Shown here in pieces: positions 12,731 through 26,406 of a stretch of 64,000 nucleotides of DNA (positions are counted from its first letter, which is position 1; each line of letters opens with the position of its first letter). This DNA is from Streptomyces sp. TLI_105 (GTDB taxonomy: Bacteria; Actinomycetota; Actinomycetes; Streptomycetales; Streptomycetaceae): assembly GCF_900105415.1 (NCBI RefSeq), contig NZ_FNSM01000001.1, positions 6,952,001 to 7,016,000 on the forward strand. The letters run 5' to 3'. Under the pieces are notes generated by a model, which was given only the letters and a program-made list of their open reading frames with translations, ran no database searches and was not told the origin of the DNA. The position numbers and the translations under genes were made by a program.

Positions 12731-12756
12731 GCGCCCCGTCCGTGGGGACGGGGCGC
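12731..12756. terminator. bidirectional hairpin between convergent genes
   Basis: GCGCCCCGTCC (12731-12741) and GGACGGGGCGC (12746-12756), a perfect 11-bp stem with loop GTGG, lie between the ends of the flavin reductase (+) and LamG-protein (-) genes. Confidence 0.65.
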
Positions 12757-12789: not shown

Positions 12790-15700
12790 CTACGGGTTGA
12801 CCGGCAGCACGGGGGTGAAGAGCGTGGGCACGTTCCACTGCTGCGCCGGGGTGCCGTTGCAGTCGAACAGCTGGAACACGGTGCCCCAGTTGCGGTTGGC
12901 CCACGGCACGTCGAGGCAGCGGCCCGACTGCGGGTTGTAGATCGAGCCGTCGGCACGCGGCAGCCACTGCTGGCCGCCCTCGCCCAGGCACTGCCAGAAG
13001 ATCACGGCGCTCTGCGACGTGGTCTGGTTTCCGCTGACGGCGACGCACTGGCCCTGCTGGGTCAGCGTGCCGTTGGCGTTCACGCTGAGCTTCTGCGCGT
13101 CGGAGCCGTTGCAGCCCCACAGCTGGGGATGCATGCCGTTGCCGCTGTTGTTGTTCGGCGCGTCCACGCAGATGTCCGGGGAGGGGGCGAAGCGGATCGG
13201 GCTGCCGGCCGTGGTGGCCTGCGGGGTGTAGCCCTGGTAGACGGCGAGGTTGCTGACCCGGCCGGCCAGCCAGTTGCTGGGCTGGCTCTGGTACTTGTAG
13301 CGGCCCATGACCAGCTTGCCGCTCGGCGCCGGGCTGGTGCCCGCCGCGTGGAAGCCGCTGGAAGCGAGCCGGCCGTTGACGTACAGGCTCATGGCACCGG
13401 TGGTGGCGTTGTACGTCGCCGTCAGCTGGGTCCAGACGCCGGCCTGGAACGCGTTGGCCGGGGTGACCGTGGCGTTGAAGTCGTACGGCCAGCCGTCGTC
13501 GTCACCGCGGGCGACGGCGAAGCGCCAGTTGCCCGAGTCCGCCCACAGCATGAACGCGCTGCCGTGGGTCGTGTCCTGGCTGACGATCACGCCGTCGGGC
13601 TTGTCCATCTTCGCCCAGGTGCTGACCGTGAAGCTCTGCCGGGTGTCGACGACCTTGTCCGGTGCGGTGAGGCTCGACTTCAGGGTGTCGCTGAAGACCG
13701 CGACGGTGGCCGGGCGGCCGTCGACCGTGTCGGGGGCGTAGCCGATGTTCGCCTCGGTGGCGTCGTTGCCGGCCGGGACGGACTTCTTGTTGTCCAGGCG
13801 CCACTGCACGGTCGGTGCCTGGGTGTTGCCGCGCACCTGGTAGCCGGCGAAGCCGTTCACCGCGCCCGCGTTCACCGTGGCCGCCCAGGAGTGCAGCGTG
13901 CCGGCCGTGTCGAGGGCCCAGAAGTCCGGCACTCCGTCGTCGCCGGCGCCGCCGTCGGTGACGTCGCCGTCGGAGCCGACGCGCGGGTACGCGGAGCCGG
14001 TGATGCCGTAACCGATGCGGGTCGCGGGCTGCGCCGTGACGCCGGTGAACACGGTGTACGTGAGACCGAGGTCGTCGGTGCGGGTGGCGGTGGCGAGCTT
14101 GTACTGGAAGATGTCGCCGCTGGTGCGGTTGCGCACCCACAGGGCCGGGGCGGTGTCCGCCGTGGTGGCGGTGGACAGGTTCAGGGTGTTGCCCGGGACC
14201 ATCAGGTCCTTGTCGTCCCAGTCGCCGCTGCCGGACACCAGGGTCGGCGGGGCGAGCGTCTGGTTGGACTTGACCGGGTAGAACCACAGCTTGCCGGACT
14301 CGACGGCGAGCAGACCGGTCGCGTCGGACACCTTGCGGCTCGGCGTGCGCGTGGTGCGGGACGGGCCGGTCGGGGTGATCTGGCTGGAGTACTGCCAGGT
14401 CCCGACGTTGTGGTAGCCGGTGCAGGAGCTCGCGTACGCCGCGTCGCAGTCCGGCTTGTCCACGGTGTGCTTGGTGCCGAGGGTGAAGCGGCCCGGGTCG
14501 GACAGCGTGTTGTCGTAGGCGAACAGGTCGCTGCCGCCGAGAGCGCCGACCGTGGCGGGCTCGCGGTGGACGAACAGGTCGTCGACGTTGCGGCCCGGGT
14601 CGAGCGAGCCGCGGTGCGCGATCCGGTAGTCCTTCCAGGTGCGGCCGGTGGACACCTCGGGCGCCTGGAGGGCGGTCGCGGCGGTGCCGCTGGGCTGCAT
14701 GCTGGTGCTGCTGCCGTCGGTGGCGCGTCCGTGGGTGACCAGGTTGCCGTTGTTGTCCGGGATCAGGATGTCGGGCCGGGCGTCACCGGTGGTGTCGCCG
14801 AAGGCGACCGGGCCGTCCTTCCACGGCACGTAGAAGGCGTACGAAAGGGTCTGGGAGGAGTTGCCCGCCTCGTCGAGGACCCGGGCGTAGACGATGTTGG
14901 TGCCCCAGTGGGTGGGCTTGACGCTGATGCCGCTCACCGAGAGGGGGCTGCCGCAGGTCTGCTGGGCGCCGACCAGCTGCGGGTCGAAGCCCCACTGGAC
15001 GCAGGCCAGGCCCGAGGAGCGCAGTCCGGCGCCGGGGCTCGGGTCGGACGCGGAGATCGGGATGGAGCCGGTGTCGCCGAGGCGCAGATTGGTGATCTGG
15101 CCGTTGCCGGCCGGCGGGTACTGGGTGGCGGGGTCGGTGAACTGGCCGAAGGCCATGACCGGCGGGGTCATGTCGACGGCGAAGTGGCAGGTGGTGCTGG
15201 AAGGGCCGCGCAGCAGGCCGTCGTCGCCGTGGGTGGCCCAGGCGTAGTTGTGGCCGTTCTGCAGGATGCCGACCGGCAGGGAGTAGGTGGCCTCCGACCA
15301 GTTCGACACGAAGCCGGACCAGCCCTGGTGCGCGGTCGCGCCCGCGGTCTCGTCCCAGACGTCGACCCACTCGGTGAGCTGGCCCTGGTTGGGGCTGCTG
15401 ACCCGGGAGATCAGGTCGGTGTGGGTGTCGGTGACCCAGCCGTACGAGGACGCGGAAACGCCGCCGCACGCCTGGGTGTCGCCGGCGACGACGCGGCGCG
15501 GGGCCGGGTTGGCGCGCAGGTTGTCCGGGGTGTTGGGCGGGAAGTCGTACTCGGTGCTGAGCGTGGCGTCGTAGCTGAAGCGCTTGAAGCCCATCTTGTC
15601 GCCGGAGCCCTCGTTGCCGCGCAGGACGAAGGCGAGCGGCTTGCTGGTGTCGCGGATCGCGTCCCGCATGGCGCCGGTGACGTTGAAGTCGACGGGGATG

Positions 15701-17145
15701 TCGTTGTAGCAGGCGGAGTTGGTGCCGTTGCCGGGCACCCACTTGCCGTCCAGCCACTCCCGGACCTCGTGGTTGTTCCAGGAGACCGAGCCGTCGAACT
15801 CACGGGCCCGGTAGACGTTCACGGGGTACGTCGTGGAGCAGGACCAGTCCGAGGAGATGTACTGGTTGACGCGCAGGTTGGCGTAGTTGACGGTCGAGCC
15901 GTAGTACCCGTTGACGTCGAACTCGAACAGGGCGCGCTCGATGCCGTTCGGGGACTCCCAGCCCTGGTAGCCCGAGCCGGGGCGGTCCCGGTCGTTGGAG
16001 CCGGAGCGGTCGAAGTTGCCGGTGCCGGTCCACGCCTGCATGACCCAGGCGTGGTGCTGCTTGCCGCGGGAGTCGCGCGACCAGGCGGGGTCGATGTAGA
16101 CGGGGTAGCTGGTGTCCGCGCCGTCGAGCAGGTCCATGCTGGGGGCCAGGGCGATGGCGCCGCGGCCCTTGCCGGCCGCGCCGGTCGCCTTCGCCTGCGT
16201 GACGGGGATCTTGGCGACGGTGGCGCGGGCGCCGGGGCCGTCGGGGCTGCTCAGTCCGTCGACGGCGCCGTTGGCCTTGTCGATGGGCGCGGAGGCGTCC
16301 ATGTCGGCGTACTTGCCGCCGCGCGCGGCCGGCCGTCGGGCCTCCTTCGCGGACCACATGACCGGAGCGGGTGCGCGGAAGACGGTGTCGCGGCCGTCGC
16401 CGGCGGTGAGGTTGCCGTCCTTGTCCTTGGCGAGGGTGAGGCCCTTGGTCTCCGCCGGGAACACCAGGTTCCGTACCGCCGGGACGGTGGCCGCGGTCGG
16501 GCTGCGCAGGATCACGACGGTGGCGTAGCCGCCCCACTTGGTGGCGGTGACCTTCAGGTCGGTGTCGGGCGCCACGTTCTCGAAGAGGGCGCCGTTGCCG
16601 CTGAGGACCGGCTTGGGCAGCGCGCCGGGGAACGGAGAGGAGACGGACAGCTGTTGGCCGTCCTCGGTGGTCATGGTGGCCAGCGGGCCGGTGCCGCCGC
16701 CGGAGAGCACGAGGTCGGAGTCGGCGGCCTTCGGGGCCACCGTGCCGTCCGCGCGGGTGATCAGGGTGTCGTCGAGGGTGACCCAGCCTCCGCCCTTGCC
16801 CTTCATGCGCTGGGCTTCGAGGCTGCGCTCGGTGCGGAGCTTGCCCTGGGGCGTGACGACGGTGGTGCTGAACTCGTCGGTGAGTTCCGGGACCTGGACG
16901 TCCTTGCCGGTCTCCCGGGCCTTCAGCTTCGCTTTCTCCGCGGCGGTGCGGGCCGCCGTCGGCTTCGGGCGCTCGGTGCTGCCCCGGGAGGGGGTGGGAG
17001 CGGCCGGGGAGGCCGACGGATCGGGCCGCGGCGAGGGTGAGGCCTGTGCCGCGTAGGGCGCGGTGGCCAGCAGCGCGGCCGACATCGCCAGGACGGCGGC
17101 GGCCGCAACGGGCCTTCGTCGCCCGGTTCTTGGTGCAGTGGACAT
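12790..17145 (-). CDS. giant secreted protein: DNRLRE, FG-GAP-like, LamG and ricin-type lectin domains
   Basis: A 1451-residue exported protein. The signal peptide (MSTAPRTGRRRPVAAAAVL then a hydrophobic core to YAAQAS) is followed by a Pro/Ser linker. About residues 345-560 form a DNRLRE-like region (YPVYIDPAWSRDS, RALFEFDV). Fibronectin-like segments follow (TPDNLRANP near 540; VDMTPPVMAFG), then an FG-GAP-type repeat (FGDTTGDARPDILIPDNNGN near 780). About 1110-1310 is a LamG/concanavalin jellyroll (FTVSTWAKMDKPDG, MSLYVNGRL), and 1315-1448 a ricin B beta-trefoil with QKLSVN, QQWLPR and QQWNVP QxW repeats. The ATG at 17145 has GGGGGA 9-10 bases upstream. It is divergent from the RHS gene and shares with it the ricin fold; a surface glycan-binding or sheath role is inferred. 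Confidence 0.85.
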   Translation of the reverse strand: MSTAPRTGRRRPVAAAAVLAMSAALLATAPYAAQASPSPRPDPSASPAAPTPSRGSTERPKPTAARTAAEKAKLKARETGKDVQVPELTDEFSTTVVTPQGKLRTERSLEAQRMKGKGGGWVTLDDTLITRADGTVAPKAADSDLVLSGGGTGPLATMTTEDGQQLSVSSPFPGALPKPVLSGNGALFENVAPDTDLKVTATKWGGYATVVILRSPTAATVPAVRNLVFPAETKGLTLAKDKDGNLTAGDGRDTVFRAPAPVMWSAKEARRPAARGGKYADMDASAPIDKANGAVDGLSSPDGPGARATVAKIPVTQAKATGAAGKGRGAIALAPSMDLLDGADTSYPVYIDPAWSRDSRGKQHHAWVMQAWTGTGNFDRSGSNDRDRPGSGYQGWESPNGIERALFEFDVNGYYGSTVNYANLRVNQYISSDWSCSTTYPVNVYRAREFDGSVSWNNHEVREWLDGKWVPGNGTNSACYNDIPVDFNVTGAMRDAIRDTSKPLAFVLRGNEGSGDKMGFKRFSYDATLSTEYDFPPNTPDNLRANPAPRRVVAGDTQACGGVSASSYGWVTDTHTDLISRVSSPNQGQLTEWVDVWDETAGATAHQGWSGFVSNWSEATYSLPVGILQNGHNYAWATHGDDGLLRGPSSTTCHFAVDMTPPVMAFGQFTDPATQYPPAGNGQITNLRLGDTGSIPISASDPSPGAGLRSSGLACVQWGFDPQLVGAQQTCGSPLSVSGISVKPTHWGTNIVYARVLDEAGNSSQTLSYAFYVPWKDGPVAFGDTTGDARPDILIPDNNGNLVTHGRATDGSSTSMQPSGTAATALQAPEVSTGRTWKDYRIAHRGSLDPGRNVDDLFVHREPATVGALGGSDLFAYDNTLSDPGRFTLGTKHTVDKPDCDAAYASSCTGYHNVGTWQYSSQITPTGPSRTTRTPSRKVSDATGLLAVESGKLWFYPVKSNQTLAPPTLVSGSGDWDDKDLMVPGNTLNLSTATTADTAPALWVRNRTSGDIFQYKLATATRTDDLGLTYTVFTGVTAQPATRIGYGITGSAYPRVGSDGDVTDGGAGDDGVPDFWALDTAGTLHSWAATVNAGAVNGFAGYQVRGNTQAPTVQWRLDNKKSVPAGNDATEANIGYAPDTVDGRPATVAVFSDTLKSSLTAPDKVVDTRQSFTVSTWAKMDKPDGVIVSQDTTHGSAFMLWADSGNWRFAVARGDDDGWPYDFNATVTPANAFQAGVWTQLTATYNATTGAMSLYVNGRLASSGFHAAGTSPAPSGKLVMGRYKYQSQPSNWLAGRVSNLAVYQGYTPQATTAGSPIRFAPSPDICVDAPNNNSGNGMHPQLWGCNGSDAQKLSVNANGTLTQQGQCVAVSGNQTTSQSAVIFWQCLGEGGQQWLPRADGSIYNPQSGRCLDVPWANRNWGTVFQLFDCNGTPAQQWNVPTLFTPVLPVNP

Positions 17146-17433
17146 GCTCGTGTATCCCCCATGCATGTGCGTGGTCCCGGCGCGTTGCGCGCAGAGATCG
17201 GGGGCACTTTGGCAGGGGCATGGCCAGCGAACAAAATCAGCCACGCCGACCGTGTCCATCTTGTGTGCAGCCTTCACGAATTGCACATGACGTGATCTAG
17301 AACACGTCCGAATTTCACCTGCTCATGGGATACGGGCGGTTGTGGCGACTGCTACCTTCCCGTCCGATTGCGCCGTCGACCAGCAGGGTCGAACGGCCCT
17401 TGCCTACTTTCAACTTTCAACGGGGGATGAGCG
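17146..17433. promoter_or_regulatory. divergent control region of the LamG and RHS genes
   Basis: 288 bases without a gene separate the two starts. The region is less GC-rich than its surroundings (for example around 17270-17320) and must hold both promoters, but I cannot assign -35/-10 boxes with confidence. A CTTTCAACTTTCAAC direct repeat at about 17408-17422 precedes the RHS ribosome site GGGGGA. Confidence 0.4.
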
Positions 17434-20400
17434 ATGCCACGCTTTGGCATGCGCCGAACCGGGCGACTTTCACGGACACGGGCGACCGTTCCGTTGATCG
17501 TCGCCCTGACGGCGTCCCTTCTGGCAGTGCCGGCGGCCCAGGCCGCTCCGGTGAAGCTGGACTTCGACAGAATCTGGCAGCCGCCGAAGACGCCGCTGCC
17601 CCACACCGCCTCGATACCGGGGACCACGGCGAAGAAGCGCGGCCCGGTGGCCCCGCCGCACGCGGTGCCGAAGCGGGCCACGGCGGCCGCCGCCCTACCG
17701 GCCGTCACCGCGCTGAGCGGCACCGCGCTGCCCACGAAGGCCCCGGCCCGCGCCGGACGACTCCCCGTGTGGGTGGGCCCCGCCACGAAGGCGCCCAAGG
17801 CCCCGCTGCCCGCGGTGACCGTAGTACGCGAGGACGGCACGGCGGCCCGCGCCGCAGGCGTGCACGGCCTCCTGTTCTCCGTTGCCGCGGTCGACGCCGC
17901 GACCGGCCGGGACGCGCACGGCACGGTGCCGGTCCAGGTCGGCCTCGACCTGGCAGAGCTCCAGCGCGCCACCGGCGGGCAGTTCGCTGCGCGCGGCCGC
18001 CTGGTGGCGCTGCCCGCGTGTGCCGCGACCACCCCCGAGCTGGCGTCCTGCCGGGTCCGTACCCCGCTGGCCGCCCACTACGACAAGGCCACCGGCCGGC
18101 TGACCGCCGACCTCGCCGTGCCCGCCCTGGCGGCCGCGCCCGCCCGGGTCACCGGCGGCGCGACCCGCTCGCCGCTGCTCGCGTCGGCGGGCGGCGCGAG
18201 CGCCCCGAGCAGCGCTCCGATGCTGCTCGCCGCCGAGACCGGTTCCGCGGGCGGCGGCGGCGACTACAAGGCGTCCGGCCTCACGCCGTCCTCGGCCTGG
18301 GCGGCGGGTGGCTCCTCGGGCGCGCTGACCTACAGCTATCCGTTCCAACTGCCGCCGGCCCTCGGCGGCCAGGCGCCGTCCCTCGCGCTGGGCTACGACT
18401 CCTCCTCGGTGGACGGCCGTACCTCCGCCACCAACGCCCAGGCGTCCTGGATCGGCGACGGCTGGGACCTCAACCCCGGCTTCATCGAGCGCACCTACAA
18501 GCCCTGCGACAAGGCGGGCATCACCCACTCCGGTGACCTGTGCTGGGGCGGCTTCAACACGAGCCTCTCGCTCGGCAGCCACTCCGGGCCGCTCGTCCGG
18601 GTCGCCACCGGTGCGGCCGGCACGGACGCGGCGACCGGTGTGTGGCGGCTGAAGAACGACGACGGCACGAAGATCGAGTTCGGCTCGGGCGCCGCCAACG
18701 GCGTCCAGGACGGCGCCTACGCCAAGGTCACCGACACCGCCGGCACCGTCTACTACTTCGGCGTCAACCACCTGCCCGGCGGCGACAAGAGCGATCCGGC
18801 GACGAACTCCGTCTCCGGCGTGCCCGTGTACTCCCCGAAGTCCGGCGACCCGTGCTACGACCCGGCCAAGGGCAACGCCTCCTGGTGCACGATGTGGCAG
18901 CGCCTCCAGCTGGACCACGTCGTCGACGCCCACGGCAACCTGACGACGTACACCTGGGCGCCCGAGACCAACTACTACGCGCGGGGCGGCGGCCAGAACC
19001 CGGGCGCCGGCACGCTCACCGCGTACACCCGCGCCAACACCCTGGCCTCGGTCGCCTACGGCCAGCGCCTGTCCGATCAGGTCGCGGCCAAGGGCGGCCT
19101 CCAGCCCGCCGTCCGGGTGACGCTCGGCACCGCCGAGCGCTGCCTCGACACGGCCGTCTGCGACCCCTCGCAGCGCACCGAGGCGAACAAGAACAACTGG
19201 CCCGACGTCCCGGTCGACCAGGAGTGCAAGGGCTCCGGCACCTGCTCCAACCTGTCGCCGACCTTCTTCACCACCCGCCGGCTGGCCTCCGTCCTGACGC
19301 AGGTCCGGGTGAACAACGTCTGGCAGGACGTCGACTCCTACGTCCTGAAGCACTCGTTCCCCGACCCGAAGGACGCCACCAGCCAGAAGGCCCTGTGGCT
19401 CGACTCGATCCAGCGCACCGGCAAGGCCGGCAGCCCGGCGATCACGCTGCCCGCGGTGACCTTCGTCCCGGTGATGCTCGCGAACCGGGTCGACGGCACC
19501 GACCTCGTCCCCGCGCCGCCGCTGATGGACCGGCCGCGCATCCAGCAGATCAAGAACGAGACCGGCGGCGTCCTCAACGTCGACTACAACCTGCCGGCGT
19601 GCTCGCGCCTGAACCATGTGATGCCGTCCGCCGAGGACGACAACACCATGGCCTGCTACCCGGTCCGCTGGACCCCGCCCGGCTCGGTCGCCGGCTCGGA
19701 CCCCGTCCTCGACTGGTTCAACCACTACACCGTCGCCTCGATCACCGAGAACGACACCACGACCGACGCCCCGCAGAAGACCAGCCGCTACGCCTACGGC
19801 CCGGCCGGCTGGCACCGGGACGACAGCGAGTTCACCGACCCCAAGTCCCGGACCTGGGGCGAATTCCGCGGCTTCGCCACCGTGACCGCCACCACCGGCA
19901 GCGGCAACGACGGCCCCAAGTCGCAGACCCGCACCACCTACCGGCAGGGCATGAACGGTGACGTCCGCAAGGACGGCTCCACCCGCGGCGTCCAGCTCAC
20001 GGACGCCCTCGGCCGGTCCGTCCCCGACAACGACTGGCTCAGCGGCCAGGTGCTCCAGACCGAGACGTACGACCAGGCGGGCGGCAGCGTCGTCAGCCGC
20101 AGCGTCTCCGCCGCCTCGGGCGAGGTGACGACCGCGACCCACGCGCGCGGCTCCGGCCTGCCCGACCTCGTCGCCCGCTACACCGCCACCACCAGCACCG
20201 TCACCGACCAGGGCAAGAAGGCCGACGGCAACTGGCGGTCCACGGTCACCACCACCACGACCGACCCGACGCACAACAACCGGGCCGTCACCACCCTGGA
20301 ACAGGCCGAGGGCCTCCCGGACCTGTGCACCCGCGCGGGCTACGCCACGGGCCCCGACGCCCAGGTGAGCGGCCTGGTCGCCGAGCAGACCGTGGTCTCC

Positions 20401-23400
20401 GGCACGGACGCCTGCACCGCGGTCGCCACGGCCGCCAACACCGTCGCCCGCACCCGTACCTCCTACGACAACCTGCCGAACGGGCAGGCGGCCGCCACCG
20501 GCGACGCCACGAAGGCGGAGGTCCTGGAGCGCTACGAGGCGGACGGCACGCCCTTCTTCGTGCCGACCGCGATCACCACCTACGACGCCTACGGCCGGAC
20601 CGCCTCGGTCAAGGACCCGAACAGCAAGGACACCCAGCACCCGGACGGGGCCGTCACCACGACCTCGTACACGCCCGCCGCGACCGGCGAGCTGCCCTCC
20701 ACGCTGACGGTCGCCGCCCCCGTGCCCGGCTCGACGGGCACCTGGGACAGCGTCACCACCATGGACGTCCGGCGCAACCTGGCCCTGACCGTCAAGGACC
20801 AGAACCTCAAGACGACCACGGAGACGTACGACGCGCTCGGCCGGCTCACCGGCGTCTGGCTGCCCGGTCGCACCCCGGCGGCCAACCCGAACGCGAACAT
20901 GACGTTCGGGTACGCGGTCTCCAACCAGGCCGGTGTCCCGTCGACGACCACCACCGACAAGCTGACGAAGGACGGCGAGACACCGGTCTACGTCAAGAGC
21001 GTCGACATCCTCGACGGCTTCGCCCGGACGCGGCAGACGCAGACGTCACCGGCCAACCCCGCCTACACCGGCCGGCTGGTCTCCGACACGCTGCTCGACT
21101 CGCAGGGCCGCACGAGGACGGCCAACGCGCCCTGGTACAACGGCGTGTCGGGCCCGACCGGCACGCTGCTGCCCTCGGCGGAGAGCACGATCCCGTCGCA
21201 GACGCGCACCACGTACGACGGCCTGGGCCGCGCCGTGGTCACCGCCTCCTGGTCGCTGGGCGTGGAGCAGTCCCGGACCACGACCGACTTCAAGGGCGTC
21301 GACCGGACGGACGTCGTGCCCCCGAAGGGCGCCGCGCCGACCACGACCCTCACCGACGGCCGAGGCCGCACCACGGAGCTGTGGCAGTACACCACTCCCA
21401 CCGCGACGGGCCTGCCGGCCGACGCCACCGTCACGCGCTACACGTACACGGTGGACGGCAGCCCGCTCACCCGCAAGGACGCGGTGGGCAACACCTGGTC
21501 ATACGGCTACGACCAGCGCGGTCGCCAGATCAGCGCGTCCGACCCCGACACCGGCACGACCACGCAGACGTGGGACGCCGCCGGACGGCTCGGCAGCACC
21601 ACCAACGGCAAGGGCCAGACGGTCACCTTCACCTACGACCTGATCGGCCGGAAGGCCGGCATGTTCGACGGCACCGCCCCGACCGCCGACAAGCAGCTCG
21701 CGGCGTGGACCTTCGACACCGCGACGGCCGGCAAGGGCAAGCCCGCCTCGTCGACGCGCTACGTCGGCGGCACCGGCGGCCAGGCGTACACCACCACGAT
21801 CAAGGGGTACGACGACGGCTACCGCGTCACCGGATCCACGGTGAGCATCCCCGGCACGGACGCCGGACTGGCCTCGGGCACGTTCTCGTACACGACCAGC
21901 ACGGTCTACGACAAGATCACCGGCAGCCCCAAGGAGACGGTGCTCCCGGCGCTCGGCGGCCTCCCGATGGACGACGTCGTGTACTCGTACAACGACTACG
22001 GCCAGATGTTCAAGTACGCGGGCGCGACGACGTACGACACGCAGACGGAGTACGACGCCTTCGGACGTCCGATCCGCTCGACCGTCAACCCGTGGGCCAC
22101 GCAGGTCGTCTCCACCACCGACTACGACCAGGCCACCGGCCGGGTCAAGCAGCATTTCGTCGACAAGCAGACGTCCACCACGGGCGCCGTCCAGCAGACC
22201 GGCTACACCTACAACGACGCCGGCCAGGTCACCTCGATCACCGGCATCGCCGACAACACCCCGTCCCAGACCGACCGCCAGTGCTTCACCTACGACGCGC
22301 TCGGCCGGCTCACGACGGCCTGGACCGACAAGGGCGGCCTGACCGCCCCGGAGGCGGGACAGACCCAGGACCAGGGCGGCTGCGCCACGACCACGCCGAC
22401 CGCCACGAACATCGGCGGCCCGGCACCGTACTGGCAGGACTACGGCTACGACCTGACGGGCAACCGCACCCGGCAGGTCAGCCACGACCCGGCAGGCGAC
22501 ACCACCAAGGACGTGACCACCACCCAGACGTTCAACGCCCCCGGCACCGTCAACACCCCGACCACCGCCCCCACCACGGGCGGCGGCACGGGTGGCCCGC
22601 ACGCCCTGCTCACGTCGACCGCCAAGACGGCGACGACCACCAACAACGACAACTTCCAGTACGACGCGGTCGGCAACACCACGTCCTTCCGCGCCGGCAA
22701 GGCGGGCACCAGCAGCCTGACCTGGAACACCGAGGGCAAGCTCGCCTCGCTCACCACCGCCACCCAGATCAAGGGCATCGGCGGCAAGTGCATGGACATG
22801 CAGGGCGGCAGCACCACCAACGGCAACCCGGTGCAGATCTACACCTGCAACAGCGGCGCGGGGCAGCGGTTCGCCACCGCCCGGGACCGGCTCTCCACCG
22901 CCGACAAGTGCCTGCAGGCCATGGGCACCGCGGCCGGCTCGCCGGTCCAGATCCAGCCCTGTGACGGCACCGCCGCCCAGACCTGGACGGCGCGTCCCGA
23001 CACCACCTTCTACAACCCCGCCTCGGGCCGCTGCCTCGCCGTCCCCGGCGACGTCACCACCGACGGCACCGACCTCGTCCTCGGCGACTGCGCCACCACG
23101 GTGCCCACCGGACAGAAGTGGACCGTCCCCGACACCACCACGACCTACGTCTACGACGCGGACGGCAACCAGCTGGTCCGCCGCAACCCGGGCAAGACCA
23201 CGATCAGCCTCGGCACCGACGAGCTGACCGTGGACACCGCCTCGGCCAACAAGACGCAGACCGGCACCCGCTACTACCCGATCCCCGGCGGCATGACCAT
23301 CGTCCGCACGGGCGCGGGCACCGCCACCGGAGCGTTCGTCGTCCAGACCGCCGACCACCACGGCACCAACGGCCTCAGCATCGACCTGTCCACGTTGACC

Positions 23401-24519
23401 GCCACCCGGCGCCCCACCGACCCCTTCGGCAACGCGCGCGGCACCCAGCCGTCGGCGTGGGCCGGCGACAAGGGCTTCGTCGGCGGCACCAAGGACACGG
23501 CGACGGGCCTGACCAACCTCGGCGCCCGCCAGTACCAGCCCGGCACGGGCCGCTTCATCAGCACGGACCCGCTGCTGAACAGCGGCGACCCGCAGAGCTG
23601 GAACGGCTACGCGTACGCGGACAACAACCCCGTCACCAACTCCGACCCGGACGGCCGGATGTGCCTGCACGGTTCGCCGGGCGGCGGAAAGGACGGGATC
23701 TGCGCGGGAGTGAAGACCACCAAGGACCATTTCGGGGACACCGATGGTGTCATCGGCGACGGCTCCAACAACTGCACCCAGGCGTACTGCATGGACCACG
23801 CGCTGCGGATGGAGGACGAAGCCGACGAGAACGGGGCGTGGAACGTCGCTCCGAACCAGCCCCTGTTCGGACACTCGGGCCATATGTCACCGGCCAAGAA
23901 GGCCTACAACCAGGCCCGCAAGGCCGAGCGTGTGGCCAAGGAGCACGCCGCCGCACGTCTGCTGGGCGCGGCACGCTGGAAGATCGCAGAGGACTACATG
24001 TACGAGGAGATCATGCGGAACCTGCGGTCCAGCACCTTCCAGACGATCTCCGACGGCCTCTCCGTGGGCGACGACCCGGTCACGAGTGCCGGCGCGGAGG
24101 CCGTCGCCACCTTCCTCTGGTTCAAGAAGGTGAGGGCGGGGGCCGACTGGGACCACAAGCCCAAGCTCGCGGCGATGATGGGCCTGAGCACCTCGTCGGA
24201 CTACAACTTCATGATCCCCGGAACCGGCGACGAGATGTACTACGACATCTGGTCGAACGTGCACTACGGCTTCGTGGGCATGGCGGCAGGCTTCGGTGAG
24301 GGCCGCCTGGAGGACGGCCCCCAAGCGCCGTTCCCCGGCATGGAGATCTTCACCGGAGACACCGACGCCGGTGACATCGCCAGCGTCCGCGGCGGCATCG
24401 ACATGTTCAAGAGGTACGGCTCCAACATGACCCGGGAGCAGTTCCACCAGGGCGTCATGGACACCGTCGCCGCAATGAAGGAGGCGAACGCCCCGCAGTT
24501 CCACCGCGGCAACGGCTGA
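17434..24519 (+). CDS. secreted RHS-repeat polymorphic toxin with nested ricin domain
   Basis: A 2361-residue exported RHS/YD-repeat protein. The signal peptide runs to about residue 35 (ASLLAVPAAQAA). About 270-370 is the SpvB/TcaC-like start (SSGALTYSYPFQLPP, LALGYDSSSVDGR, GDGWDLNPG). YD repeats fill roughly 790-1775 and 1900-2030 (YDALGRLT, YDQRGRQIS, YDAFGRPI). At about 1779-1899 a complete ricin trefoil (GGKCMDMQGG, QRFATA, QTWTA, QKWTVP) interrupts them. The RHS core box ARQYQPGTGRFISTDPL is near 2030 and DPDGR near 2071 marks the usual toxin junction. The last 290 residues include FLWFKKVRAG near 2226 and YYDIWSNVHYGFVG near 2268, resembling polymorphic toxin type 44; its activity is unproven. 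GGGGGA precedes the ATG by 6 bases. No immunity gene follows. Confidence 0.88.
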   Translation: MPRFGMRRTGRLSRTRATVPLIVALTASLLAVPAAQAAPVKLDFDRIWQPPKTPLPHTASIPGTTAKKRGPVAPPHAVPKRATAAAALPAVTALSGTALPTKAPARAGRLPVWVGPATKAPKAPLPAVTVVREDGTAARAAGVHGLLFSVAAVDAATGRDAHGTVPVQVGLDLAELQRATGGQFAARGRLVALPACAATTPELASCRVRTPLAAHYDKATGRLTADLAVPALAAAPARVTGGATRSPLLASAGGASAPSSAPMLLAAETGSAGGGGDYKASGLTPSSAWAAGGSSGALTYSYPFQLPPALGGQAPSLALGYDSSSVDGRTSATNAQASWIGDGWDLNPGFIERTYKPCDKAGITHSGDLCWGGFNTSLSLGSHSGPLVRVATGAAGTDAATGVWRLKNDDGTKIEFGSGAANGVQDGAYAKVTDTAGTVYYFGVNHLPGGDKSDPATNSVSGVPVYSPKSGDPCYDPAKGNASWCTMWQRLQLDHVVDAHGNLTTYTWAPETNYYARGGGQNPGAGTLTAYTRANTLASVAYGQRLSDQVAAKGGLQPAVRVTLGTAERCLDTAVCDPSQRTEANKNNWPDVPVDQECKGSGTCSNLSPTFFTTRRLASVLTQVRVNNVWQDVDSYVLKHSFPDPKDATSQKALWLDSIQRTGKAGSPAITLPAVTFVPVMLANRVDGTDLVPAPPLMDRPRIQQIKNETGGVLNVDYNLPACSRLNHVMPSAEDDNTMACYPVRWTPPGSVAGSDPVLDWFNHYTVASITENDTTTDAPQKTSRYAYGPAGWHRDDSEFTDPKSRTWGEFRGFATVTATTGSGNDGPKSQTRTTYRQGMNGDVRKDGSTRGVQLTDALGRSVPDNDWLSGQVLQTETYDQAGGSVVSRSVSAASGEVTTATHARGSGLPDLVARYTATTSTVTDQGKKADGNWRSTVTTTTTDPTHNNRAVTTLEQAEGLPDLCTRAGYATGPDAQVSGLVAEQTVVSGTDACTAVATAANTVARTRTSYDNLPNGQAAATGDATKAEVLERYEADGTPFFVPTAITTYDAYGRTASVKDPNSKDTQHPDGAVTTTSYTPAATGELPSTLTVAAPVPGSTGTWDSVTTMDVRRNLALTVKDQNLKTTTETYDALGRLTGVWLPGRTPAANPNANMTFGYAVSNQAGVPSTTTTDKLTKDGETPVYVKSVDILDGFARTRQTQTSPANPAYTGRLVSDTLLDSQGRTRTANAPWYNGVSGPTGTLLPSAESTIPSQTRTTYDGLGRAVVTASWSLGVEQSRTTTDFKGVDRTDVVPPKGAAPTTTLTDGRGRTTELWQYTTPTATGLPADATVTRYTYTVDGSPLTRKDAVGNTWSYGYDQRGRQISASDPDTGTTTQTWDAAGRLGSTTNGKGQTVTFTYDLIGRKAGMFDGTAPTADKQLAAWTFDTATAGKGKPASSTRYVGGTGGQAYTTTIKGYDDGYRVTGSTVSIPGTDAGLASGTFSYTTSTVYDKITGSPKETVLPALGGLPMDDVVYSYNDYGQMFKYAGATTYDTQTEYDAFGRPIRSTVNPWATQVVSTTDYDQATGRVKQHFVDKQTSTTGAVQQTGYTYNDAGQVTSITGIADNTPSQTDRQCFTYDALGRLTTAWTDKGGLTAPEAGQTQDQGGCATTTPTATNIGGPAPYWQDYGYDLTGNRTRQVSHDPAGDTTKDVTTTQTFNAPGTVNTPTTAPTTGGGTGGPHALLTSTAKTATTTNNDNFQYDAVGNTTSFRAGKAGTSSLTWNTEGKLASLTTATQIKGIGGKCMDMQGGSTTNGNPVQIYTCNSGAGQRFATARDRLSTADKCLQAMGTAAGSPVQIQPCDGTAAQTWTARPDTTFYNPASGRCLAVPGDVTTDGTDLVLGDCATTVPTGQKWTVPDTTTTYVYDADGNQLVRRNPGKTTISLGTDELTVDTASANKTQTGTRYYPIPGGMTIVRTGAGTATGAFVVQTADHHGTNGLSIDLSTLTATRRPTDPFGNARGTQPSAWAGDKGFVGGTKDTATGLTNLGARQYQPGTGRFISTDPLLNSGDPQSWNGYAYADNNPVTNSDPDGRMCLHGSPGGGKDGICAGVKTTKDHFGDTDGVIGDGSNNCTQAYCMDHALRMEDEADENGAWNVAPNQPLFGHSGHMSPAKKAYNQARKAERVAKEHAAARLLGAARWKIAEDYMYEEIMRNLRSSTFQTISDGLSVGDDPVTSAGAEAVATFLWFKKVRAGADWDHKPKLAAMMGLSTSSDYNFMIPGTGDEMYYDIWSNVHYGFVGMAAGFGEGRLEDGPQAPFPGMEIFTGDTDAGDIASVRGGIDMFKRYGSNMTREQFHQGVMDTVAAMKEANAPQFHRGNG

Positions 24520-24540
24520 TCCGGCACCTCCCGGCACGAC

Positions 24541-24586
24541 CCGGGCGGCGGCTGTCCTCACCTCGGTGAGGACAGCCGCCGCCCGG
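24541..24586 (+). terminator. very long hairpin after the RHS gene
   Basis: Perfect 20-bp arms at 24541-24560 and 24567-24586 with loop CCTCGG, 21 bases past the RHS stop. No U-run, but one of the strongest stems in the window. Confidence 0.75.
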
Positions 24587-24602
24587 CGTCCCGCCCCATG
24601 GA

Positions 24603-24640
24603 AGAAAGGCCCGCACGGCCGAGGCCGTGCGGGCCTTTCT
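24603..24640. terminator. bidirectional intrinsic terminator (uppP side)
   Basis: Perfect 18-bp arms 24603-24620 and 24623-24640, beginning AGAAAGG and ending CCTTTCT, so either strand gives a U-containing tail. It closes uppP (minus) and backs up the RHS terminator. Confidence 0.8.
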
Positions 24641-24676
24641 CGCTGCTCCCGATCGGCGCCGGGTGTACTGGCCCGG

Positions 24677-25552
24677 TCAGCCCGCGGACTCGCCCGCGTG
24701 CGGGCTCAGCACGCCCGCCGATACCAGCACGATCAGCAGGATGCCGAGCAGGATGCGGTAGATCACGAAGGGCATGAAGGACTTCGTGGTGATGAACTTC
24801 ATGAACCACGCGATCACCGCGTAGCCGACGACGAAGGCGATGATCGTGGCGAAGATCGTCGGACCCCAGGAGACGTGGCCGCTCTCGCCCGCGTCCTTCA
24901 GCTCGAACACGCCCGAGGCGAGCACCGCCGGGATGGCGAGCAGGAAGGAGTACCGGGCCGCCGCCTCGCGGGTGTAGCCCATGAACAGACCGCCGGAGAT
25001 CGTCGCGCCCGAACGGGAGACGCCCGGGATCAGGGCCATCGCCTGGCAGACGCCGTAGATCAGGCCGTCCTTCACACCCAGGTCCTTGAGCGTCTTGCGC
25101 TCGCGCATCGCGCGGTGCCGGCCGCCGATCTCGTCCCGGGCGGCGAGCCGGTCGGCGATGCCGAGGACGACGCCCATCACGATGAGGGTGGTCGCCGTGA
25201 TCCGCAGGTCGCGGAAGGGGCCCTCGATCTGGTCCTTGAGCGTGACGCCGAGGACGCCGATCGGGATCGAGCCGACGATCACCAGCCAGCCCATCTGGGC
25301 GTCGTGGTCGGAGCGCATCGCCTTGTTCGTGAGGGAGCGGAACCAGGCCGAGACGATCCGGGCGATGTCCTTGCGGAAGTAGATCAGGACCGCCGCCTCC
25401 GTGCCGATCTGGGTGATCGCGGTGAAGGCCGCCCCCGGGTCCTCCCAGCCGGCGAACGCCGCCGTGAGGCGGAGGTGCGCGCTGGAGGAGATGGGAAGGA
25501 ACTCCGTCAGCCCCTGGACGAGTCCCAGGATGAACGATTCGAACCAACTCAT
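24677..25552 (-). CDS. uppP: undecaprenyl-diphosphatase
   Basis: A 291-residue integral membrane phosphatase that recycles undecaprenyl pyrophosphate to the monophosphate carrier for peptidoglycan synthesis, and gives bacitracin tolerance. Both signature motifs are intact: the N-terminal QGLTEFLPISSSAHL (residues 13-27) with its catalytic Glu, and PGVSRSGATISGG near 170 with the catalytic Arg. About eight hydrophobic segments follow the family topology. It is the usual BacA/UppP length. Monocistronic, with a strong terminator 36 bases downstream. Confidence 0.95.
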   Translation of the reverse strand: MSWFESFILGLVQGLTEFLPISSSAHLRLTAAFAGWEDPGAAFTAITQIGTEAAVLIYFRKDIARIVSAWFRSLTNKAMRSDHDAQMGWLVIVGSIPIGVLGVTLKDQIEGPFRDLRITATTLIVMGVVLGIADRLAARDEIGGRHRAMRERKTLKDLGVKDGLIYGVCQAMALIPGVSRSGATISGGLFMGYTREAAARYSFLLAIPAVLASGVFELKDAGESGHVSWGPTIFATIIAFVVGYAVIAWFMKFITTKSFMPFVIYRILLGILLIVLVSAGVLSPHAGESAG

Positions 25553-25647
25553 GGGGCTAGGGCCGTCCCGTTATGTACGTGTGCGGTCAGAAGGTCGTGC
25601 GCAGCGTACATGCCCAAGATGACGGGCCCGTGGCGAGGCCCGTGGCG

Positions 25648-26406
25648 CTACCGGAGCGCCGTCTCCCGCACCGGATCGGGCTCCCCGGCCGCAGCCCCGC
25701 CGGCGGCGGCCCGCAGGCCGTGCCGCTTGCGCCAGGCCACCACCGCGGCGCCGAGGCCCGACAGGGCGATGAACCCCGCCGAGAAGAGGAACGCCGGCGA
25801 GCCCGGCGAACCCGCCTGGGCGCCCGCCACCACGTACGCCGCCGTGTTCGGCAGGGAGCCGAGCGCCGTCGCGACCAGGAAGGGGACGTACCGCATCCGC
25901 GAGACGGCCGCGCAGTAGTTGGCCGCCGCGAACGGCACCCCGGGGAACAGCCGGATCGCCAGCATCGAACGGAACCCGTGCCGGCTCAGCTGCCCGTCCG
26001 CCGCCGTCAGCCAGCGGCCCCGCACCAGCGGCCGCAGCGCGTCCTGACCCAGGAACCGGCCGAGCGCGAACGCGATCCCCGCGCCGAGCACCGTCCCCGC
26101 GAGCGCCCCCGTCAGACCGGCCGCGGCACCGAAGAGCGCGCCCGCCGCCAGGTTGAGCACCGGACGCGGTACGAACGCCGCCGCGCACACCCCGTACGCG
26201 AGACCGAAGAGCAGCACCGCCCCGGCACCGCTCGTGTGCGGCGGCCAGCCCGAGGCGAGCATCCGCTGCGGCTCGTAGAGGACCACGAGGGAGGCGGCCG
26301 TGAGCAGCAGGAGCGCGAGCAGCGACAGTCGCGAGCGGGGGGAGAGCAGGGCCCGGGAACAGCGGACGGCGAGGGAGCCCGGCGGCCGGGGGACGGGAGC
26401 GAGCAT
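25648..26406 (-). CDS. TVP38/TMEM64 (VTT-domain) membrane protein
   Basis: A 252-residue polytopic membrane protein. A basic N-terminus leads to the first helix (LSLLALLLLTAASLVVLY). The VTT core comprises FVPRPVLNLAAGALFG, an internal GTVLGAGIAFALGRFLGQD (GxxxGxxxxYxxGR-like) and RLFPGVPFAAANYCAAVS, with the helix pair typical of DedA-related scramblases or transporters. There are about six helices in all. Function in bacteria is unsettled: lipid scrambling or ion-coupled transport. It is divergent from the DNA alkylation repair gene. Confidence 0.82.
   Translation of the reverse strand: MLAPVPRPPGSLAVRCSRALLSPRSRLSLLALLLLTAASLVVLYEPQRMLASGWPPHTSGAGAVLLFGLAYGVCAAAFVPRPVLNLAAGALFGAAAGLTGALAGTVLGAGIAFALGRFLGQDALRPLVRGRWLTAADGQLSRHGFRSMLAIRLFPGVPFAAANYCAAVSRMRYVPFLVATALGSLPNTAAYVVAGAQAGSPGSPAFLFSAGFIALSGLGAAVVAWRKRHGLRAAAGGAAAGEPDPVRETALR

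Follow-up and report, generated by a model that had tools for sequence, protein, structure and literature searches.

How does a lineage keep an apparently intact toxin gene of the polymorphic type without an immunity gene beside it? This question is raised by a locus of Streptomyces sp. TLI_105 that lies in a stretch of 64,000 nucleotides (the window; positions 6,952,001 to 7,016,000 of contig NZ_FNSM01000001.1), where a gene for an RHS/YD-repeat protein ends in a tip of the Ntox44 toxin family. A preliminary description of the locus had noted a type 44-like C-terminus without a visible immunity gene and had proposed that immunity is elsewhere or internal, that the toxin is inactive or that the segment does something other than poison. 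This interpretation was supported in part; the extent of the absence across the lineage and the nature of the genes next to other Ntox44 toxins go beyond it. In our leading account, for which we see the chances as about even, an intact Ntox44 tip resides in a two-gene block without immunity gene, and the protein would be exported, would act on the cell envelope and would be used mainly against non-kin, unless the producer is itself insensitive.

The safest statement is that the tip is an intact Ntox44 toxin on an RHS chassis. The toxin reading frame is open throughout, and 286 residues remain after the DPDGR junction (residues 2071-2075). As the preliminary description had expected, a hidden Markov model search with Pfam PF15607 recognized the C-terminus, with E-values of 3.1e-13 for the whole protein (50.4 bits) and 2.1e-14 for the tip alone (54.2 bits), above the gathering cut-off of 24; no NCBIfam model matched the tip when it was searched alone. 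A profile search of the window's own genome (two contigs, 100% complete) returned one Ntox44. The motifs tabulated for the family by Zhang et al. 2012 (PMC3482391), namely DxK, GNxxxG and DxxxD, are matched only in part by the tip: DHK is present for the first, SNVHYG has serine in place of the first glycine of the second, as in 71 of 73 aligned rows, and D134xxD137 (DxxD) stands instead of the third, D137 being found in 68 of the 73 rows. An AlphaFold2 model of the domain based on this 73-row alignment (predicted local distance difference test score, pLDDT, 91.6; predicted template modelling score, pTM, 0.89) shows nine predicted helices and, besides these, three short strands, each of 3-4 residues, which agrees with an all-alpha fold. 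In a model of the full tip, pLDDT was below 50 over the first 39 residues.

Directly behind the toxin gene, the window has no room for an immunity gene. A hairpin of 24 base pairs, interrupted by one bulge, begins 19 bases past the stop (folding energy -60.2 kcal/mol over a 75-base stretch), no T-run was found after it, and uppP on the opposite strand is reached 157 bases from the stop; the preliminary description had likewise noted a hairpin and then uppP. An open reading frame (ORF) of 450 codons at 24566-25918, starting 47 bases past the stop, lies over uppP on the opposite strand and was rejected as an antisense mirror; its GC content is 0.85 at the first and 0.70 at the third codon position.

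A contig scan yielded three close relatives of the locus, in S. diastatochromogenes (L002), S. litmocidini (L003) and S. nymphaeiformis (L004), with tip identities to the window of 74%, 70% and 59%, respectively, and one distant locus. The four species share an 11.9-kb block consisting of two divergent genes, the toxin and a partner, with a hairpin near each end; a third gene was not seen in it. DNA identity of 90-91% with the three relatives continues through the end of the toxin-side hairpin and stops at 24583-24590. On the left, in the two of the three relatives compared there (92-93% identity), the limit is 12706 or 12717, a short way past the end of the partner gene. The block occupies unrelated sites in the four species, none of which share DNA directly behind the hairpin, and uppP adjoins the toxin gene in the window only, not in the three related copies. 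Since an immunity gene directly behind the toxin was found in none of the four, the absence of linked immunity is lineage-wide and extends over at least four Streptomyces species.

Two explanations would place protection inside the block itself. The partner could act as a protector outside the cell, being the only other gene present and 86-95% identical in long segments, with about 61-84% in short N-terminal segments. However, this divergent LamG/lectin partner accompanies RHS genes in several Streptomyces, including ones with other tips, of which one (G209) has a linked immunity-like gene, and the S. diastatochromogenes copy of the partner is divided into two frames whereas the toxin frame is open. 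We therefore regard protection by the partner as very improbable indeed. An immunity gene hidden inside the toxin gene, read in a different frame or antisense to it, is almost certainly not the answer. Long antisense ORFs do occur in the tip region (e.g. 23887-24561), but open other-frame runs there do not exceed those of 35 control windows taken from the RHS body: for the best other frame, the shortest run among the four species is 235 codons, compared with a control mean of 289 (standard deviation 53). No embedded gene stands out, and synonymous divergence is higher in the tip than in the body. Neither finding that would have spoken against the preliminary description, a non-toxin domain at the C-terminus or an immunity gene embedded there, was thus made.

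The lack of a neighbour gene is unusual for the window's chassis. At a threshold of E 1e-20, 216 of 295 Streptomyces genomes have the RHS core. For the chassis comparison, the window's genome and lineage were set aside, and 20 of the 22 top-scoring places elsewhere were used (G024:C8 and G107, in the same score range, were left out, and the two paralogs in the window's genome were considered separately). In 17 of these 20 relatives with other tips, a coding-like ORF on the same strand lies -51 to +105 bases from the stop, although several of the accepted ORFs have a first-position GC slightly above the third and two (L135 and L140) are weak. The exceptions are L122, L132 and L133. The accepted ORFs are often of lower GC, a tendency of imported immunity genes. 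The window thus shares chassis, partner and exchangeable tip with the Streptomyces RHS toxins that have a LamG/lectin partner and differs from them in the absence of the gene behind the tip. Exchange of tips is illustrated by L122 (G188) and by L085, where the tip starts as in the window and ends differently. The mechanical rule for downstream ORFs also flags the window, L003, L004, L010 and L018, which were rejected by judgement. At the window, L004, L010 and L018 the flagged ORFs have a first-position GC of 0.81-0.93, above that of the third position, and at the window, L003 and L004 they start inside the hairpin and extend into unshared DNA; those at L010 and L018 would have counted as membrane-like.

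Ntox44 genes on other chassis suggest what kind of protection the family normally has. Ntox44 was found in 13 of 295 genomes of a genus sample, 11 of 293 of an order sample and 2 of 296 of a phylum sample, the samples overlapping. Among 22 assessable actinobacterial loci (the one of S. nymphaeiformis is part of the set), a neighbour gene follows the toxin gene in 13 and is lacking in nine; on chassis other than the window's, 13 of 18 have one. (This tally excludes G289, at a contig end, L005, which was not assessed, and L118, whose frame is broken by stops; L019 was counted though only a toxin fragment, and G224 and G291, being the same genomes as L002 and L003, were counted once.) All 13 neighbours encode a membrane protein, a lipoprotein or a membrane-anchored protein. 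Eight of them (L006, L007, L011, L012, L019, L050, L051 and L053) are small membrane proteins of about 95-140 residues, here called A1, with the pattern W..C.(I/V)G, more closely W..C(D/E)(I/V)G, followed by N and AN and often ending in PPWWP. No convincing model for A1 was found in Pfam (best E 0.3) or NCBIfam (best E 0.024). The neighbour at L055 is A1-like with a similar C-terminus. Lipoprotein-like neighbours (A7) occur at L015 and L016, which share CGG and EWYYWAQYG, and as a distant member at L056 (E 2.4e-4), and that of L057, a weak Ntox44 match, is membrane-anchored. Further afield, on plasmids of Treponema and Photobacterium, the Ntox44 gene overlaps the following gene, which encodes a protein with a membrane stretch at its N-terminus. 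Of the nine loci without neighbour, four have the window's chassis and four a second one (G157, G143, G270 and G330; L070-L073); the ninth is L054.

We defined a membrane-like stretch as a 19-residue Kyte-Doolittle mean of at least 1.6. Such a stretch is present in 14 of 15 Ntox44 neighbours, compared with none of 17 neighbours of other tips and 2 of 19 other coding genes on the plasmid stretches, a comparison that is partly one of judgement because the L055 and L056 neighbours were found by reading frames, unlike the 17. As the 15 are not independent, they were collapsed to families, giving 5 of 5 for Ntox44 versus none of 17 for other tips (Fisher p about 4e-5). The mechanical rule on its own gives 10 of 11 membrane-like Ntox44 neighbours (L016 falls just below the threshold, L055 and L056 are not flagged, and the L010 and L018 mirrors are excluded). 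L117 and L120 are outside the 15, and L115 and L121, which are A1 proteins on plasmids, were not added. The membrane and membrane-anchored neighbours of these relatives suggest that the toxin family attacks the cell envelope.

In its sequence context A1 behaves like a candidate Ntox44 immunity family, with reservations. Among 28 further sites, A1 stands behind a decayed Ntox44 remnant at four (L146, L147, L151 and L157), the pattern that an immunity gene surviving its toxin would leave; no remnant was seen at the other 24. A1 is present in 61 of 295 Streptomyces genomes, many without the toxin, and other roles are therefore possible. Searches for A1 gave no match in the window's genome, S. diastatochromogenes or S. 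litmocidini (S. nymphaeiformis was not searched), and A1 is absent from seven of eight searched genomes with a neighbourless Ntox44. An A7 search gave only a match of E 0.05 in the window's genome and nothing in the other two.

These results bear on two explanations that place immunity outside the block. Protection in trans, by an unlinked gene of a family not recognized here, is the chief rival and corresponds to the earlier proposal that immunity lies elsewhere; we consider it unlikely, though worth keeping. The neighbour families are diverse, with A1 membrane proteins, A7 lipoproteins and single anchored proteins, which makes another family plausible, and A1 genes away from toxins exist. 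Against this stand the missing A1 and A7 matches just described, which weaken the proposal, and the scattered sites of the block, each of which would need an unlinked gene. The second explanation, that uppP next door protects, e.g. if the toxin attacks the undecaprenyl lipid cycle, is very unlikely. Besides the convergent neighbour in the window, a uppP paralog of 44% identity (L004:14464-15234) lies 5.6 kb downstream of the toxin gene in S. nymphaeiformis, and the arrangement in G244 described at the end of this text could be counted in its favour. However, uppP is missing from the fetched DNA of S. diastatochromogenes (L002, L142) and S. litmocidini (L003, L143) as well as from the other fetched toxin stretches of at least 3 kb. 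It is also near-universal (188 of 199 genomes), and 29 other uppP sites have neither an adjoining A1 gene nor this RHS gene.

By frame and conserved residues, the tip looks functional. None of the four species copies has a stop or frameshift in the toxin gene, all four keep the near-invariant domain positions D63, H64, K65, N98, H100, Y101, G102, G105 and D137, and the motifs WDHK and SNVHYGFVG are conserved in every copy on this chassis. Residues 271-1770 are 91-93% identical among the four species and the tip 59-74%. Nonsynonymous differences per site (pN) amount to 0.04-0.05 in the body and 0.17-0.28 in the tip, synonymous ones (pS) to 0.11-0.15 and 0.24-0.36; this joint rise would fit tips that are older or were exchanged better than it fits decay.

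We infer the proposed course of action partly from general knowledge of RHS toxins. The RHS protein is probably secreted, its N-terminus being signal-like as judged by eye only. After export, the RHS shell would enclose the tip, the core would cut the chain near DPDGR by autocleavage, the tip would come free at a target cell, to whose binding the lectin in front of the RHS core would contribute, and the freed Ntox44 domain would damage the envelope. Linked immunity would be dispensable if the chief targets of the protein are not close kin or if the producer's envelope is insensitive. In a sharper form, Ntox44 would be an envelope-acting toxin and not a cytoplasmic RNase, normally guarded by membrane proteins or lipoproteins, and the window's lineage would have dropped self-protection and turned the protein into a plain exotoxin against non-kin; this form is tentative, and we lean slightly against it. 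The passages of Zhang et al. 2012 (PMC3482391) drawn on here state that toxins directed at distant organisms need no self immunity, and note secreted or transmembrane immunity for a toxin predicted to act at the surface, with only one lipoprotein immunity family; their immunity column is empty for Ntox44. In the portions of the literature consulted, no immunity protein for Ntox44 is described.

Several findings weigh against this account, in addition to the chief rival and the element of judgement in the neighbour comparison. In Sinorhizobium (L117) the next gene is 378 bases away and its product lacks a membrane stretch, and in Kitasatospora (L120) there is no neighbour before a convergent gene. 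G143, the eighth of the searched neighbourless genomes, has an A1 gene elsewhere. A lectin was found in two of four scanned chassis relatives, and since L174, a relative with an immunity gene, also has one, possession of a lectin does not account for the absence of that gene here. Structure searches with the domain model gave no lead on activity or enzyme class. The literature excerpts used, which include a Klebsiella paper (PMC9134191), term Ntox44 an RNase, nuclease or toxin domain, and PMC9635880 cites Ma et al. 2017a as characterizing it. Finally, dN/dS is 0.46-1.00 in the tip compared with 0.31-0.40 in the main body, and reaches 1.22 within the Pfam stretch for the window and L004. Ratios near or above 1 in the comparisons with L004 may reflect relaxed or diversifying selection on the tip. 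They can also be counted, together with DxxD in place of DxxxD, in favour of an inactive or decaying toxin whose immunity could be lost, an option named in the preliminary description. The open frames and retained near-invariant positions of all four copies disfavour this option, which we consider quite improbable.

Another improbable explanation, though less so than decay, is that the tip is no weapon and works as an enzyme on the envelope of the producer itself, e.g. in development; immunity would then be irrelevant. The lack of an immunity gene fits this idea, and the database protein P0102, which fuses Ntox44 to an M15-type peptidase domain (PF13539), makes an envelope enzyme conceivable; the fusion is likewise consistent with a wall target for a toxin, without proving it. 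However, Ntox44 is patchily distributed among the Streptomyces genomes, the tip diverges far more than the body, the near relative L085 has another tip, and elsewhere the domain is carried by PAAR, Hcp-type or WXG100 proteins or found next to VgrG.

The locus can be compared with known systems. With the Ntox44 toxins of the type VI secretion system (T6SS), WXG and RHS proteins, it shares the domain, its near-invariant residues and the predicted helical model, but in contrast to those elsewhere in Streptomyces, where the linked gene, if present, encodes a membrane protein or lipoprotein, it has no linked immunity gene. The Ntox44 RHS loci on the second chassis resemble it in that no immunity gene was seen; they differ in a shorter tip and another N-terminal part, with SpvB (PF03534) and TcdB-mid (PF12256) in the two scanned of the four (L070 and L072), and D134 is not kept in L010 and L013. 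Linked immunity is a hallmark of classical polymorphic toxin systems as outlined in the cited parts of Zhang et al. 2012. The locus has their conserved chassis and an exchangeable tip behind the RHS core (TIGR03696), but linked immunity is absent in all four species; although built alike, it should not be filed as such a system without caveat. Ntox44 is widespread (T6SS, the type VII secretion system and RHS proteins) and labelled an RNase, whereas the neighbours described here supply candidates for its immunity and hint at the envelope as its site of action. The locus is a natural case in which a polymorphic-type toxin is intact without linked immunity in several species, and it is relevant to the question of how weapons aimed at kin turn into general ones. 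The features of the locus are listed below.

Features of the two-gene block and its right-hand neighbour (window coordinates)
Feature	Position	Strand	Evidence or remark
Hairpin behind partner gene, near left block end	12731..12756	-	
Divergent partner gene, LamG-like and ricin-type lectin domains	12790..17286	-	PF13385, PF00652
RHS/YD-repeat protein with ricin-type lectin and C-terminal Ntox44	17434..24519	+	2361 amino acids
Candidate N-terminal secretion signal, residues 1-38	17434..17547	+	translation inspected by eye
Ricin-type beta-trefoil lectin, residues 1777-1896	22762..23121	+	PF00652, E 1.6e-22
RHS-associated core up to DPDG(R) junction, residues 1996-2074	23419..23655	+	TIGR03696, E 6.6e-18
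Variable C-terminal tip, 286 amino acids, residues 2076-2361	23659..24516	+	
Ntox44 domain, predicted mostly alpha-helical, residues 2178-2361 (Pfam match 2229-2324)	23965..24516	+	PF15607; model
Hairpin behind toxin gene, right-hand end of two-gene block	~24538..24590	+	folds in four species
uppP (undecaprenyl-diphosphatase), convergent, outside block	24677..25552	-	PF02673, E 1.1e-86

The true start of the partner gene may be nearer 17235. The window's genome also contains two RHS paralogs with other tips, of which L112 has no close gene behind it and L113 has an open frame of only 532 residues. In G244 (L149), uppP (L149:578-1450) has a convergent orphan A1 gene on its 3' side, an arrangement that is perhaps due to chance.

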